Assembly: GCA_902526645.1 (NCBI GenBank)
Contig: CABZLS010000006.1
Span: forward strand, 1 to 64,000
Direction of reading: 5' to 3'
Length of the DNA: 64,000 bases
DNA from: an uncultured Pelagibacteraceae bacterium
Lineage (GTDB): Bacteria > Pseudomonadota > Alphaproteobacteria > Pelagibacterales > Pelagibacteraceae
The notes beneath the pieces are model-generated. The model had not been told where the DNA came from and ran no database searches. It saw only the letters and a program-made list of their open reading frames with translations. Shown here piece after piece: positions 955 through 18,832 of the stretch. The position numbers and the translations under genes were made by a program. Positions within the stretch are counted from its first letter, which is position 1. Each line of letters begins with the position of its first letter.

Positions 955-1875
955 TTATGCTATAGATTTTAGTAAACTTTTATTAATAAGAGTATGCGGT
1001 AAGTTTCTTTCTTGTATTTCAATTATTGAGAAATTTTCTTTATCGTTAAATAATTTTCTCAACAATTGATTTGTGAGATAATGCCCTCCTTGTGAACATA
1101 TTAAACTAGCAACAATTCTATATCCACAAGTATATAAATCTCCTATACAATCTAGTATTTTGTGGTTAACAAACTCTTTAGAGTTTCTCAAACCACCCTC
1201 ATTAAGAATCTTGTCTTCCTGTACAACAATCGCGTTACTTAAACTTCCACCTTTTCCTAAACCATTTTTTTTGATTATTTCAATATCCTCAAATAAACAA
1301 AATGTTCTGGAGTCAAATATATCTTTTAAATTATCTTCATAAACATTTATTTTATTTTGTTGGTTTCCAATCAATGGATTATTATATTTTAACTCAAAAT
1401 CTATATCTAAACTTAACTTGGAGGGCTCAATTGAAATAAATCTTTTGCCTTCATTAAATTCTACTTTTTTATTTATCTTTACTATTTTAATTGGAGCATC
1501 ACTAATCTTGAGACCAGTAATCATTATTTTATTGATAAATTCTTGCGCTGATCCATCAAGAATTGGAACTTCTTCATTGTCAATTTCAATTAAAGCATTA
1601 TCAATTCCTAGTCCAAATAGAGCACCCATTAAATGCTCTATTGTACAAACTTTTGCACCAAATTCATTTTCTATAGTTGTATTCAAAGAGGTGCTTGTTA
1701 CATTATTAAAATTTGGATAAATTAGATTATTTTTTGATAAATCAGTTCTTTTAAAAACAATTCCTGAGTTTGGCTCTGAAGGTCTAATATTTATATTAGA
1801 AATTTCTCCGTTATGAAGACCAATCCCACTAAAACTTACTGTTTTTTTTATTGTTTTTTGATTTAATAAAGACAC
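955..1875 (-). CDS. lpxC: UDP-3-O-acyl-N-acetylglucosamine deacetylase
   Basis: QKTIKKTVSFSGIGLHNGE, CTIEHLMGALFGLGIDNALIEIDNEEVPILDGSA, VNHKILDCIGDLYTCGY motifs. Confidence 0.97.
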   Translation of the reverse strand: MSLLNQKTIKKTVSFSGIGLHNGEISNINIRPSEPNSGIVFKRTDLSKNNLIYPNFNNVTSTSLNTTIENEFGAKVCTIEHLMGALFGLGIDNALIEIDNEEVPILDGSAQEFINKIMITGLKISDAPIKIVKINKKVEFNEGKRFISIEPSKLSLDIDFELKYNNPLIGNQQNKINVYEDNLKDIFDSRTFCLFEDIEIIKKNGLGKGGSLSNAIVVQEDKILNEGGLRNSKEFVNHKILDCIGDLYTCGYRIVASLICSQGGHYLTNQLLRKLFNDKENFSIIEIQERNLPHTLINKSLLKSIA

Positions 1876-1937: not shown

Positions 1938-2639
1938 TCAGTTAAAAAAATCAAAAAATTTCACGAAAAATCCCTTACTTTTTGAAACTTTTTCAATAAA
2001 TCTGACCTCATTTTTATTACAACCTTCGATAATTTTTTCTGATTTTTCAAATATATTTATGTTTTTTATCTTAAAATAATCTTTCACATACTTGGCGCTA
2101 ACAATTTTTTTAACTGAAATATGATACTTTTTAAAAATTTTCTCTAAATCAATAATCTTTTTATTAGAAAGACAAATAAATGTGACATCCAACGAAAAAA
2201 ATTTGCAATTCAAATTTTCTGGAAATGATTTAAAAGTCCTATCATCCAATTGGTAATTATTAATTATCATATGAATTATTTTTTCATCATTAAGAGTTTT
2301 TTTACACTGATCTTTTAGCTCGCTTAATGAATGATTTAAATTTTCAAAGTTTAACTTATTTCCATAATTATTTTTCTTAATTGAAATTTGGACAGAGAAC
2401 AAATTTTCTGTATCAAGAATAACATAAATGCTTTTAATAAAATTTTTAATTAATTTTTCAATCTTAAATATATGATTATCTAAAAAATTTAATATTAGTT
2501 CTGAATTTAATTTATTGAATTTATCTAAATTTAATTCTGCTTGATATAAAGGTTTTGTATAATTTTTTTGCTTAACATTTATTATTAATTTATTTGTGTT
2601 AATAAACAAAAAAGTACTAAAATTTATTTCATTATTCAT
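1938..2639 (-). CDS. ftsA: Reduced FtsA-like protein (1A/1C-like region plus C-terminal amphipathic tail; no recognisable 2A/2B domains)
   Basis: sits between ftsQ and lpxC where ftsA is expected; segment MIINNYQLDDRTFKSFPENLNCKFFSLDVTFICLSNKKIIDLEKIFKKYHISVKKIVSAKYVKDY follows the FtsA 1C pattern; C-terminus SKGFFVKFFDFFN resembles an FtsA membrane-targeting helix; only 233 aa. Confidence 0.65.
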   Translation of the reverse strand: MNNEINFSTFLFINTNKLIINVKQKNYTKPLYQAELNLDKFNKLNSELILNFLDNHIFKIEKLIKNFIKSIYVILDTENLFSVQISIKKNNYGNKLNFENLNHSLSELKDQCKKTLNDEKIIHMIINNYQLDDRTFKSFPENLNCKFFSLDVTFICLSNKKIIDLEKIFKKYHISVKKIVSAKYVKDYFKIKNINIFEKSEKIIEGCNKNEVRFIEKVSKSKGFFVKFFDFFN

Positions 2640-3303
2640 TTATAATTACCTGATTAAGTTGTCTGAGATCTATAATCTTTGTATTTTTAAATTCATCGTG
2701 TTTTATAATATCCTCTAATAATCTAAATGATTTTTCTAATTCAATTTTAGGTAATTTAATCAAAATTCCAGGATGAATCTCTAAATCCCATCTACCTGAT
2801 TTAAAATATAAGATCTTATCAATTGAACTAAATTCAAATTTAGAATTATCAATTATTTCTTTTAATCTAAAAAAATCTTCATTTTTAAAATCGCCAAAAA
2901 TATAGGGTAAGTTATCTATTTTTTTTTCAATAGGAATTATATTTCCATTAGACCCTAAATAAAAATTTTTACCATCTTTATTAATATTTGCTAAAATTTT
3001 TGTTTTAAAAATGAATATTTTTAAAGATGAGGGATATTCTTTATATATATTATACTTTTCTATAATTTTATTTGATTCAATTATATTTTTGATATCTTCT
3101 TTATTGATTGAAAATAAATTTTTTTTTTTAAGAAAAAATAATTTTTTTATTAATATATTTCTTTCCTCATCATTTAACCCCAAAACTTCGATATTTTTTA
3201 TAGTTGGAAATTTACTATCAATAAAATTTTTATTATTAAGTGAACCTAATAAAATAAATAAAAAAATGTAAATTATTAATTTACTATTTATTTGTTGAGG
3301 CAT
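2632..3303 (-). CDS. ftsQ: Cell division protein FtsQ
   Basis: single N-terminal TM, POTRA-like IKNIEVLGLNDEERNILIKKL, position between ddl and ftsA. Confidence 0.8.
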   Translation of the reverse strand: MPQQINSKLIIYIFLFILLGSLNNKNFIDSKFPTIKNIEVLGLNDEERNILIKKLFFLKKKNLFSINKEDIKNIIESNKIIEKYNIYKEYPSSLKIFIFKTKILANINKDGKNFYLGSNGNIIPIEKKIDNLPYIFGDFKNEDFFRLKEIIDNSKFEFSSIDKILYFKSGRWDLEIHPGILIKLPKIELEKSFRLLEDIIKHDEFKNTKIIDLRQLNQVIINE

Positions 3304-11049: not shown

Positions 11050-13908
11050 CTATTTTATTCCTTTTATTTCATTTACTATCTTATTGAAACCTGTCGCATT
11101 TGAGGCTTTAATCATGATATAATCATCATTATTTAAATCCTTTTTGAAGAATTCAGTAATTTGCAGTTTATTACTTAAAATTCTACCCTTTTTATGACTT
11201 AAGAGTTTATTGAATATTGTAACAACATCATTTCCTTTAACAAAAACTTTGTCAATTTTTGTTTTATTTATTAAAGGAATAATAGATTTATGGAGTTTTT
11301 TTGAATGATTACCAAGCTCCAACATATCTCCAAGTAGAAGATATTTCTTAGATTTTTTTGACTCAATTTTATCAAAATTCAGTATAGCTGACTTTAAGGA
11401 TAAAGGATTAGAGTTATAACTTTCATCAATTAAGTTAATCTTTTTATTGTTAATCTTTATTTTAGAAATATCTCCTCTACCATTTGGCAATTTAAAATTT
11501 AAAAAAATATTTTTATCAATCTCTAAAATATCTATATAAATACTCATCACAGATATAGCTGAAAGGATATTATAGATATTACTTTCAAAATTATTCGAAA
11601 TTAAAAAATATCTATTGTTATTGAATATCTTACAATTCAATTTATAAAATTTTCCTTTCTTTTTTAAATTCATAAATTTAATATTTGATTCTGTATTTTT
11701 TATTCCAAAGGAAATTACTTTAAGTTTTTTTTTAGTTGCTATCTTTTTATGGAATTTAAAGAAATTATCGTCTGCATTTAAAACAATAAAACCATTAGGT
11801 TTAGTATTATTAATGATTTCAGATTTAGCTAAAGCAATCTGTTTTATATTATTAAAATTTTTAGCATGAGCATAATTAATATTTGTTATAACACTAACAT
11901 TTGGTTGAATTATTTTAGTTAGGTAATCTATTTCACCTTTTTTATCCATCCCAACCTCTAATACTCCAAAGTCATCATTTTGATCTATATTTAAAAGGCT
12001 TAAAGGAACACCAAATTTGTTATTATAGGATTTTGGTGAAATGGTGACCCTAGAAATTTTTTTTAAAGAGTTTCCTAATAATTCTTTTAGAGTTGTTTTT
12101 CCACAACTACCGGTTATAGCAATAATCTTTGTATCAATATTTTTTCTAAAAACTTTTGATACATCTGTTAAAAATTTTAATGAGTTTTTGACTTTAATTT
12201 GTTTTCTATAATTGTAATTATTTTGAATTCTATTGACAATAGCTATAGAAGCTTTTTTTTTAAATGCCTCTCCTACAAACTTATTTCCGTCATTCTTCCT
12301 TCCTTTAATTGCAAAAAAAATGTCATTTTTTTTAATTTCTTTTGAATTAATTTTTGCATATTTTATATTTAAAAAAGGAGAGATTTTTTTATTCAAAGAT
12401 AGATCTTTAATGATATTTAATTTCAAATTATTTGATAAACTTAAATTTTTAATTTTAATTGCTTCTAAAATATTCTTTCTATCTGAAAAAAAAATTTTTT
12501 TATCACCTAGATCCTGAACTTTTTCATGACCCTTTCCAGCTACCAATAAAATTTCACCTGTATTCAATTTTTTTATTGCTTCTGAGATGGCTTTTGATCT
12601 ATCAGGAATTTCAATGACATCAATTTTTTTAATTCCTTTTTTAATATCTTTTCTAATTTTGTTTGGATTTTCATATCTTGGATTATCATCAGTAAGAAAG
12701 ATTTTATCTGATAAATCAGAAGCGATTTTACCCATCTTAGATCTTTTGTTCTGATCTCTATTTCCGCCACATCCAAATAATAAAATAATTTTTTTATGAG
12801 AAAAGTGTTCTCTTAAACTTAAAAGAGAAATTTTAAGTGCATCAGGAGTATGTGCATAATCAAGAATTACTTTAGATTCATTTTTAATTTTACCAATTTT
12901 TTCTAATCTACCCTCTACAGGTTTTATTTTAGGAATTACTTTTAAAATCTTATCATAATTTAGATTACTTTTTTTTGCTGCAATTATAGCCATCCATAAA
13001 TTTTTCAATTGAATTTTTCCAATTAAATTAAGACTTACTTCCTTTACAGACTTATTATTTCTTATTTTAAGAATTTGAGCATCGTTTCTATAAGCGTGTG
13101 ATAATAATTCAAAATTATTTCTTTTGTCTTTAAGTGTAAATAGTTTAAATTTTTTTTTTATTGCAACTTTTTTAATTTTTTTAAATTGAGATATGTTTTC
13201 ATCTGTAATTATATTTCCCCCTTTTTTTAAAAGATTTTTAAATAGATATAATTTTGCCTTAAGATAGTTTTGTAAATTCTTATGATAATCTAAATGATCT
13301 TGTGATAAATTTGTAAATATTCCTGAACTAAACTTTAAACCATCGAGTCTATTTTGTGCAAGACCGTGGCTCGAGGCTTCCATGATTACATTTTCAATTT
13401 TTTGGTTTTTAAGTTTATTTAATATTTTACTTAATTGCAGTGGATCAATTGTTGTATTAGGTAAATTAGAATAACTATTTTTTGATTTTACTCCTAATGT
13501 TCCAATTGAAGCAACTTTCTTATCACCTAGACTCATTAATTGATAATAAAAATCAGCTACAGACGATTTACCATTGGTTCCAGTTACAGCAATTAGATTT
13601 TTTGGTCTTTTATTGAAAATTTTAAAGGATACTTCTGCTAATAATCTTCTAACATTTTTTGTATAAAGAAATAAAATTCCTTTTTTAAAACCTTTAAATT
13701 TTTGATCTGAAATAATTATTTTTGAACCTTTTTTAATAGCCGATGATATAAATTTATTACCATCAATTTTGCTGCCTCTTATTGCAAAAAAAATATAATT
13801 CTTTTTAACTTTGGCGCTATTAAAGGTAATACCTGAAAAAAAAATTTTCCTAAACTTCTTGTTAAGATTTGGAATGTAATCTTTAAGTAACATTTTAATC
13901 AACTTCAC
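11050..13908 (-). CDS. murE-murF: MurE-MurF fusion (UDP-MurNAc-tripeptide synthetase plus UDP-MurNAc-tripeptide--D-Ala-D-Ala ligase)
   Basis: 952 aa in one frame with two Mur-ligase modules: VTGTNGKSSVADFYY ... DDNPR (meso-DAP-type MurE motif) then ITGSCGKTTLKELLG ... LIDESYNSNPLSL (MurF). Confidence 0.95.
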   Translation of the reverse strand: MKLIKMLLKDYIPNLNKKFRKIFFSGITFNSAKVKKNYIFFAIRGSKIDGNKFISSAIKKGSKIIISDQKFKGFKKGILFLYTKNVRRLLAEVSFKIFNKRPKNLIAVTGTNGKSSVADFYYQLMSLGDKKVASIGTLGVKSKNSYSNLPNTTIDPLQLSKILNKLKNQKIENVIMEASSHGLAQNRLDGLKFSSGIFTNLSQDHLDYHKNLQNYLKAKLYLFKNLLKKGGNIITDENISQFKKIKKVAIKKKFKLFTLKDKRNNFELLSHAYRNDAQILKIRNNKSVKEVSLNLIGKIQLKNLWMAIIAAKKSNLNYDKILKVIPKIKPVEGRLEKIGKIKNESKVILDYAHTPDALKISLLSLREHFSHKKIILLFGCGGNRDQNKRSKMGKIASDLSDKIFLTDDNPRYENPNKIRKDIKKGIKKIDVIEIPDRSKAISEAIKKLNTGEILLVAGKGHEKVQDLGDKKIFFSDRKNILEAIKIKNLSLSNNLKLNIIKDLSLNKKISPFLNIKYAKINSKEIKKNDIFFAIKGRKNDGNKFVGEAFKKKASIAIVNRIQNNYNYRKQIKVKNSLKFLTDVSKVFRKNIDTKIIAITGSCGKTTLKELLGNSLKKISRVTISPKSYNNKFGVPLSLLNIDQNDDFGVLEVGMDKKGEIDYLTKIIQPNVSVITNINYAHAKNFNNIKQIALAKSEIINNTKPNGFIVLNADDNFFKFHKKIATKKKLKVISFGIKNTESNIKFMNLKKKGKFYKLNCKIFNNNRYFLISNNFESNIYNILSAISVMSIYIDILEIDKNIFLNFKLPNGRGDISKIKINNKKINLIDESYNSNPLSLKSAILNFDKIESKKSKKYLLLGDMLELGNHSKKLHKSIIPLINKTKIDKVFVKGNDVVTIFNKLLSHKKGRILSNKLQITEFFKKDLNNDDYIMIKASNATGFNKIVNEIKGIK

Positions 13909-16906: not shown

Positions 16907-18364
16907 TTAATTTTTTTGTCTTCTTAAAAATGCTGGTATCTCAAGATCATCATCCTCACTCTCCTCACTGGATATTCCTAGTAAATTATCTGAGTTGGAA
17001 TTTTGATTTTCTGAATTAAATAAATCTGGTGAGTCTGTATCTACACCAAACTCCTTTAAATCATTATCTGAGTGTTGAACAGCCTCTTCAGAGAAAGATT
17101 TCTCCGTATCGTTACTTGTTTCTTCAAGAATGCTTTTTATTTCTTGATTTTTTAATAATTCCTCATGATATTGATTATTAACTTCATCTACAGACTCATT
17201 CATGTTTTCTTGTTGGTTATTATTAATAATAACCTCATTTTCTAGCTTAAGTGCGTTCGCACCCTCTGAAACTAAATTTTGATTACCAGCAGAAAACCCA
17301 AAAGATTTTGAGGCGCTATTGGTCGCAAAATCAGAATAACCTGGATTTCTATTTTGTATTCTATGAACCATATTAATTACAGATTTAGACTCTGGTTGTT
17401 GACCATCTAGAGAGGTTGCAACAATTGAAACACGAATTTTACCATCCAGGGATGGATCAATAATTGATCCATTGATTATTTCTGCTTCAGTATCTACTTC
17501 AGATCTAATTTTATTTACAATTTCATCTACTTCGAAAAGTTTTAAATCCTCTCCACCAGTAATATTAATTAATAAACCCTTTGCACCTCTGAGAGAATAA
17601 TCGTCAATAAGTGGATTGTTTAATGCCAATTCAGTTGCTTTAATAGCCCTACCTTCCCCCTCGGCTTCTCCAGTTCCCATCATTGCTTTTCCCATTGAGC
17701 TCATGACAGTTTCAACATCAGCAAAATCTAAATTAACTAACCCATCTTTAACCATTAAATCTGTTACACTCTGAACCCCATGTCTTAAGATACTATTAGA
17801 TAATTGAAAAGACTCTTTATAGGTTGTTTGTTCATTGGCAATCTTAAACAAATTTTGATTTGGTATAACTATAATTGTATCAACATGTTTTCTTAATTCA
17901 TCAAGTCCTTGTTGAGCTCTTCGCATTCGTGAAGGAGCCTCATATAAAAATGGCAATGTTACAACACCAACAGTTAAAATATTTAATTCTTTTGCTGCTC
18001 TTGCAATTACATGTGCTGCACCAGTTCCCGTGCCTCCTCCCATTCCAGCAGTTATAAAAACCATATTTGCACCCTTTAGAATATCTATAATATCGTTTAG
18101 AGACTCATCTGCTGCTGCCTGACCAATTTCATGTTTTGCGCCCGCACCTAAACCTTTAGTTAAATTAAGACCTATCTGAATTCTTGTTTTAGATTTACTT
18201 GTTTTAAGATCTTGAGCGTCAGTATTAACTGCAACAAATTCTACACCATCTACTCCTGCATCAATCATCTCATTAATTGCATTGCCGCCAGCTCCTCCTA
18301 CACCTAAAACTAATATTCTTGGTTTCAATTCTTTAATTTCTGGTACTTTAAAATTAATTGTCAT
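16907..18364 (-). CDS. ftsZ: Cell division GTPase FtsZ
   Basis: [28 protein letters not shown] tubulin signature; C-terminal [15 protein letters not shown]; purine-rich RBS AACGGGGGAT upstream. Confidence 0.99.
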
Positions 18365-18376
18365 TTTTATCCCCCG

Positions 18377-18832
18377 TTATTTGTTAAGTTGATGCTCCCA
18401 TTTAAGGCTAGCTCGATTTAAATTAGCTTTTTTTCTTGCATTTACCTTAAATTTTTCAAATATTTTTGGCTCCCATATTTGGAATGTTTTTCCCTGACCA
18501 ACAAAAATCATACTATTCTTAATTTTTGAATGTTTTAATAATTTAGAAGTAAGATAAATTCTTCCCTCACTATCAAATTGTAAATTTGTGCTTTCAGATA
18601 AAATTGATGTTGCAAAGAAATCTCTTTTTTCCTCAAAAGGATTTAGAGAGTCTATAGAATTTGAAATTTTCTCCATTCTATCTTGAGGCCACGCCTCTAT
18701 AGATTGATTATTAAATGATGGATAACAAATCACACCGTTATATCCCAAATTAGACAAATATGATCTATAACTTGCAGGCACTGACACCCTTCCTTTTTTG
18801 TCCAATTTGTTTTCGTAGGTCGATAAAAACAT
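18377..18832 (-). CDS. mraZ: Transcriptional regulator MraZ
   Basis: MFLSTYENKLDKKGRVSVPASYR AbrB-like duplicated fold, head of dcw cluster. Confidence 0.95.
   Translation of the reverse strand: MFLSTYENKLDKKGRVSVPASYRSYLSNLGYNGVICYPSFNNQSIEAWPQDRMEKISNSIDSLNPFEEKRDFFATSILSESTNLQFDSEGRIYLTSKLLKHSKIKNSMIFVGQGKTFQIWEPKIFEKFKVNARKKANLNRASLKWEHQLNK

Follow-up and report, generated by a model that had tools for sequence, protein, structure and literature searches.

What stands at the ftsA position of a bacterium in which the only open reading frame (ORF) between ftsQ and lpxC is half the expected size? The question is raised by a 64,000-nucleotide stretch of DNA from an uncultured member of the Pelagibacteraceae, referred to here as the window. 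Pelagibacter is the dominant SAR11 genus of surface ocean bacteria, and no paper on SAR11 FtsA or on a half-FtsA was found in the literature searched, most subscription journals lying outside its scope.

A half-size reading frame between ftsQ and lpxC

The locus is occupied by the following genes:

2632..3303 (-): ftsQ, with POTRA_1 and FtsQ_DivIB_C matches
1938..2639 (-): half-FtsA ORF of 233 aa, in the place of ftsA
955..1875 (-): lpxC, the downstream flank, which serves as species marker

The half-FtsA ORF is intact, with an ATG start and no internal stops. Its first 8 nt (2632-2639) are shared with ftsQ, and 62 nt separate its stop codon from lpxC (955-1875), so that there is no space for a hidden longer frame. 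The surrounding cluster, all on one strand, comprises mraZ, ftsZ, rsmH, a small ftsL-like ORF, ftsI, a murE-murF fusion, mraY, murD, ftsW, murG, murC, murB, ddlB, ftsQ, the half-FtsA ORF and lpxC, where all gene names except ftsQ and ftsZ were read from the sequences. The fusion is a 952-aa ORF (window 11050-13908) that, from its sequence alone, resembles MurE joined to MurF. The ftsZ gene does not adjoin ftsA but has mraZ and rsmH as neighbours where the cluster begins (window 16907-18832); in a genome of the sister family (G030), too, ftsZ and ftsA are spaced by about 14 kb on one contig.

The NCBIfam ftsA model TIGR01174 matched the 233-aa ORF with E=7.4e-6, over residues 67-184 only, corresponding to positions 67-182 of the 371 in the model. 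The score of 25.3 bits lies under the curated cut-off of 175.85 bits, a value also missed by the long forms of the genus and by the sister family (71-170 bits). The Pfam model SHS2_FTSA (PF02491) matched weakly. For the family as a whole the match is clear: TIGR01174 was matched by 47 of the 58 close relatives, and the relatives' profile found FtsA as its best matches in the PDB.

Predicted fold and selection

Using AlphaFold with 58 relatives, we obtained a model predicted at high confidence (pLDDT 86.2, pTM 0.80), with its elements in 1A-1C order and helices at residues 196-204 and 224-231. The structural check against FtsA that an earlier note on this DNA had proposed revealed a clear similarity: FtsA chains took the top 19 places of the Foldseek search against the PDB, the best being 7q6i_B (E 7.1e-12, TM 0.63 by query length), followed by PilM and GspL. 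Global TM-scores to FtsA were moderate, at about 0.6, for a superposition over all domains together. Compared profile to profile, half-FtsA matched full-length FtsA of the sister groups with a probability of 98.8 and an E-value of 8.7e-17 over residues 42-192. In close pairs of half-FtsA, dN/dS was about 0.13-0.33, and the protein is therefore maintained.

Parts of the half-protein and the missing lobe

Based on the predicted fold and on alignment with long relatives, the ORF was divided as follows:

2412..2621 (-): subdomain 1A, first part, residues 7-76 (AlphaFold secondary structure and alignment with long relatives)
2130..2399 (-): subdomain 1C, SHS2-type, residues 81-170 (TIGR01174, weak PF02491 match, fold, and profile match to sister-group FtsA)
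2073..2117 (-): subdomain 1A, second part, with strand 175-181 and helix 182-189, the final element ahead of the excised lobe
2055..2072 (-): scar, residues ~190-195, where full-length relatives have ~150 residues of 2A and 2B
2004..2054 (-): last 1A helix and conserved G-x-N-x-x-E-V motif, retained, residues 196-212
1941..1973 (-): putative C-terminal amphipathic membrane-targeting helix, GFFVKFFDFFN (conservation and hydrophobic moment)

The first part of 1A is predicted to consist of three strands, a helix at residues 46-64 and a strand at 70-76. The earlier note had found the usual phosphate motif absent from this N-terminal part, rightly so: the window has FLFINTNKLIINV where the long relatives have DFGSKNLRL. 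In the long relatives, the FtsA motifs are preserved in either lobe: IDFGSKNLRL (phosphate 1), LDIGFERSS (phosphate 2), IPIGGNNITKDIS and IGGGSK. For the short forms, phosphate 2 and the adenosine loops fall inside the missing lobe and phosphate 1 is degenerate, having decayed after lobe II was excised.

Short forms align to long ones across 1A, 1C and the 1A strand and helix that follow 1C, and then again across the last 1A helix and the tail, with a gap of about 150 residues in place of 2A and 2B. The clearest pair is formed by the short L047 (...IICSNYAKSFTKNKSFANICESGLKLMQGINKQEVVIVPRKLEKKGFFERLFHFFK) and the long L170, in which ...CSSYAKSTNYKDNF... and ...EGICESALKLGEGLNKQEVVVVPKKQIKEGFFEKLFHLFK flank lobe II. 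L047 is an intermediate short form, nearly colinear with the long-B sequences L170 and L008 on either side of one internal gap; at the scar, the alignment with these two reads ...CSNYAKSF[..]ICESGLKLMQGINKQEVVIVP.... This colinearity indicates that the excision followed the boundaries of 2A and 2B and spared the membrane helix. A first MAFFT alignment had placed the residual C-terminal stretch at the start of 2A, an assignment that was overturned by comparing L047 with the long-B C-termini, which identified it as the last 1A helix.

The tail of the window's ORF, SKGFFVKFFDFFN, which the earlier note had described as hydrophobic and aromatic, is indeed conserved and amphipathic, with a hydrophobic moment of 0.45-0.56 for the helix. 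The short forms share the pattern G(F/L)FEKFFxxFS, and the helix is the most conserved segment of half-FtsA (mean conservation 0.85 vs about 0.5 elsewhere). The same note had proposed a 1C segment, which the TIGR01174 match, the sister-group profile and the predicted fold all bear out, and had pictured the protein as a residual 1C module on a membrane anchor. The 1C domain and the helix stand, but 1C is not alone, as the whole 1A fold is kept, including its last helix. In the predicted model, the 1A-1C lobe is folded, its own last helix closes it, and a putative membrane-targeting helix comes after it.

Relation to known systems

Half-FtsA resembles FtsA (TIGR01174; PDB 7q6d, 7q6f/7q6i, 4a2a, 1e4f) in its place after ftsQ, in subdomains 1A and 1C and in the C-terminal amphipathic helix, but it measures about 233 aa against about 370-420 aa and has a degenerate phosphate-1 motif. 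The loss of 2A and 2B has also taken the ATP cleft, the filament-forming IIA-IIB contact and the site known to bind the FtsZ peptide, as the earlier note had supposed and as the alignment of long and short forms supports. By these comparisons the protein is homologous to FtsA, yet without several FtsA-defining features. The long FtsA of sister species (e.g. G419) has the same locus, the same type of tail (GFFEKLFHFFK) and alignable 1A, 1C and last helix; it retains a somewhat shortened lobe II, with phosphate 2 (DIA/DIG..T), GGNHIT and GxGS, whereas half-FtsA is without this lobe.

PilM and the cytoplasmic domain of GspL/EpsL (5eou, 2ych, 4pht, 1w97) likewise have an actin-related fold and act as cytoplasmic adaptors for a membrane machine. 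However, they belong to different systems and gave weaker Foldseek matches (E 1e-7 to 1e-4), and PilM has both lobes. E. coli FtsA mutants such as R286W, for which a monomeric, active state is proposed, would likewise act without long FtsA polymers (PMC9098913); they are point mutants with both lobes, while half-FtsA lacks half of the protein in nature.

Distribution and origin of the short form

Related genomes were searched, and within the genus Pelagibacter the locus holds a gene of either of two lengths, about 231-237 or about 369-394 aa, with identical flanking genes in long- and short-form species. FtsA was matched in 277 of 399 genus genomes. Among the 134 listed genus genomes that are at least 85% complete, 92 have an ftsA of 200-250 aa (~230-245 aa in most of them), 41 one of 370-395 aa, and one a broken copy. 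Relatives were also gathered through LpxC, and the named ones among them are single-cell genomes and MAGs of Pelagibacteraceae and Candidatus Pelagibacter; here, every one of the 57 complete ORFs read upstream of LpxC was short (220-240 aa). Rather than being peculiar to the window's genome, the short form is a typical trait of the genus and recurs far beyond chance, and, on the alignments, most of the sampled Pelagibacter species carry an FtsA minus one whole half, with the tail kept. Genomes on a single contig contain it as well (G400, 1,456,888 bp; G313; G097; G416), and the single-contig, 1,308,759-bp genome G419 is an example of long-B. FtsA of the sister family is full length (393-396 aa), and six sister genera have open frames of 397-420 aa, except for two copies truncated where a contig ends.

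No FtsA match was obtained in at least 20 of the genus genomes that are at least 85% complete (e.g. G422, G133, G464), a lack that may reflect contig gaps, more divergent forms or complete loss. In the complete genome G012 (1,343,202 bp), the half-ftsA frame is broken at a T7A8 homopolymer run (L013, ~1550-1580), while near relatives are intact; the break may be a sequencing error, a recent pseudogene or a frameshifting site.

These data bear on two readings that would deny the short ORF any role. It could be a decaying, functionless remnant of ftsA, as the loss of a lobe, the decay of motifs and the frame break in G012 might suggest; against this stand the purifying selection, the recurring length in most of the 92 genomes, the very conserved tail helix and the fold predicted at high confidence. 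Given the dN/dS values and the few disrupted copies, we rejected the pseudogene reading as highly improbable. The window's genome is a draft of 35 contigs and 90% completeness, which leaves room for a frameshift hiding a longer ORF, or for a full-length ftsA missed in the draft. But the same length repeats in many independent genomes, including single-contig ones, and the short distance to lpxC also speaks against it. The comparison of the same locus across relatives, proposed in the earlier note, thus excludes a frameshift, and we give an artefact of sequencing or assembly practically no weight.

The long forms fall into two separate groups within the genus. Long-B branches among the short forms and has the C-terminal NxxEV motif in common with them. 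With LpxC+DdlB trees, monophyly of the short forms was rejected (AU p=0.0013); with the FtsA 1A/1C tree it was not (p=0.325). Given this disagreement, the sequence data are compatible with repeated loss of the same lobe as well as with one loss and subsequent gene exchange. The alignments show the half-FtsA gene as a descendant of an ordinary ftsA from which the segment encoding lobe II (2A+2B) was removed inside the genus Pelagibacter.

Other division proteins in these genomes

The FtsZ C-terminal peptide binds subdomain 2B of FtsA; PDB 4a2a is the FtsA complex with this peptide. The earlier note had remarked that FtsZ in the window keeps a canonical C-terminal peptide, and 15 residues are found intact:

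16907-18364 (-): ftsZ in the window
16910..16954 (-): FtsZ C-terminal peptide, 15 residues, intact despite the loss of the known FtsA 2B site

FtsZ was found, as a single copy, in 18 of 19 genus genomes. Its 10-residue C-terminal peptide is invariant in the short-form species read and likewise conserved in the long-form species read. In both, a second conserved linear motif precedes the peptide in the linker (window 16910-17050), and its PDLF recurs in the sister family; this motif is a possible second adaptor site.

A full-length ftsA elsewhere in the genome, which the earlier note had named as a finding that would overturn its reading, did not turn up in the complete short-form genomes G313, G400, G097 and G012 using PF14450 and TIGR01174, the further actin-fold matches being MreB and DnaK only. 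Of the proteins that the note had put forward for a search, the tethers ZipA (PF04354; none in 18 genomes) and SepF (PF04472; three fragments only, E about 0.08) were not found, and 17 of 18 genomes have ZapA. FtsX had no match at the family cut-off, which, among the controls, the model reaches in E. coli alone. The SPOR-domain proteins of the short-form genomes are only ~250-aa lipoproteins that resemble RlpA (L233 1459-2211 (-) and equivalents), so that a canonical FtsN, bitopic and with a SPOR domain, was seen neither in the short- nor in the long-form class; a divergent FtsN could escape detection. The FtsN-type partner that the note had suggested was therefore not found.

A proposed adaptor and the anchoring of FtsZ

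FtsA has been described to contact FtsN at the IA-IC cleft, and itself laterally through IC-IC and longitudinally through IIA-IIB (PMC7613929), and a model for E. coli takes monomeric FtsA as the active state (PMC9098913). We consider it likely that half-FtsA, with lobe II excised, works as an ATP-independent, non-polymerising, membrane-bound divisome adaptor that keeps the 1A-1C cleft. Loss of lobe II would leave it without the usual IIA-IIB filament and independent of ATP. It would sit at the membrane by means of the putative tail helix, and the 1A-1C cleft would hold late-division membrane proteins. Such a protein would stay permanently in the monomeric state that work on E. coli describes as active, and the FtsZ tail would be held either by a new surface of half-FtsA or by another, unrecognised anchor, to which we give about equal weight.

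The invariant FtsZ peptide implies that something still binds the FtsZ tail, which a pure late-division adaptor leaves unexplained. Half-FtsA may itself still be the FtsZ anchor, keeping its proto-ring job through the membrane helix and receiving the peptide on a remodelled 1A-1C surface, for instance the face once under lobe II. This is a plausible reading, if somewhat short of probable, and it fits the invariance of the peptide in short-form species, the failure to find ZipA and SepF, the lack of an FtsX match at a cut-off reached among controls in E. coli alone, and the tail helix being the best conserved part. However, the known 2B site is gone and the new one is putative, and long-form species conserve the peptide to the same degree, so that it may serve other partners. 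The absence of matches to ZipA, to SepF and, at its family cut-off, to FtsX fits just as well with FtsZ being tethered by another anchor, such as a divergent FtsEX, an FzlC-like or a new protein, with half-FtsA serving late steps only. Caulobacter is known to have alternative anchors for FtsZ (FzlC literature), yet no candidate was found here, and we regard this arrangement too as plausible, if somewhat short of probable. Taken together, we lean towards the view that division in Pelagibacter uses an FtsA of one lobe that neither needs ATP nor polymerises, the FtsZ tail being bound at a new interface of the half-protein or by a wholly new anchor.

Implications for division in Pelagibacter

Models based on E. 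coli differ between monomeric and double-filament FtsA, and whether division needs ATP binding and polymerisation is debated. In the short forms of Pelagibacter, the lobe with the ATP cleft and the filament contact has been removed in nature. Other species of this genus have retained FtsA in full, so that long- and short-form species provide a natural comparison. Short-form Pelagibacter apparently divide without the FtsA filaments on which the E. coli-based models rely, and half-FtsA raises the question of what anchors FtsZ in these cells. If the short forms do divide in this way, neither FtsA filaments nor FtsA ATPase activity would be needed for division in abundant ocean bacteria.
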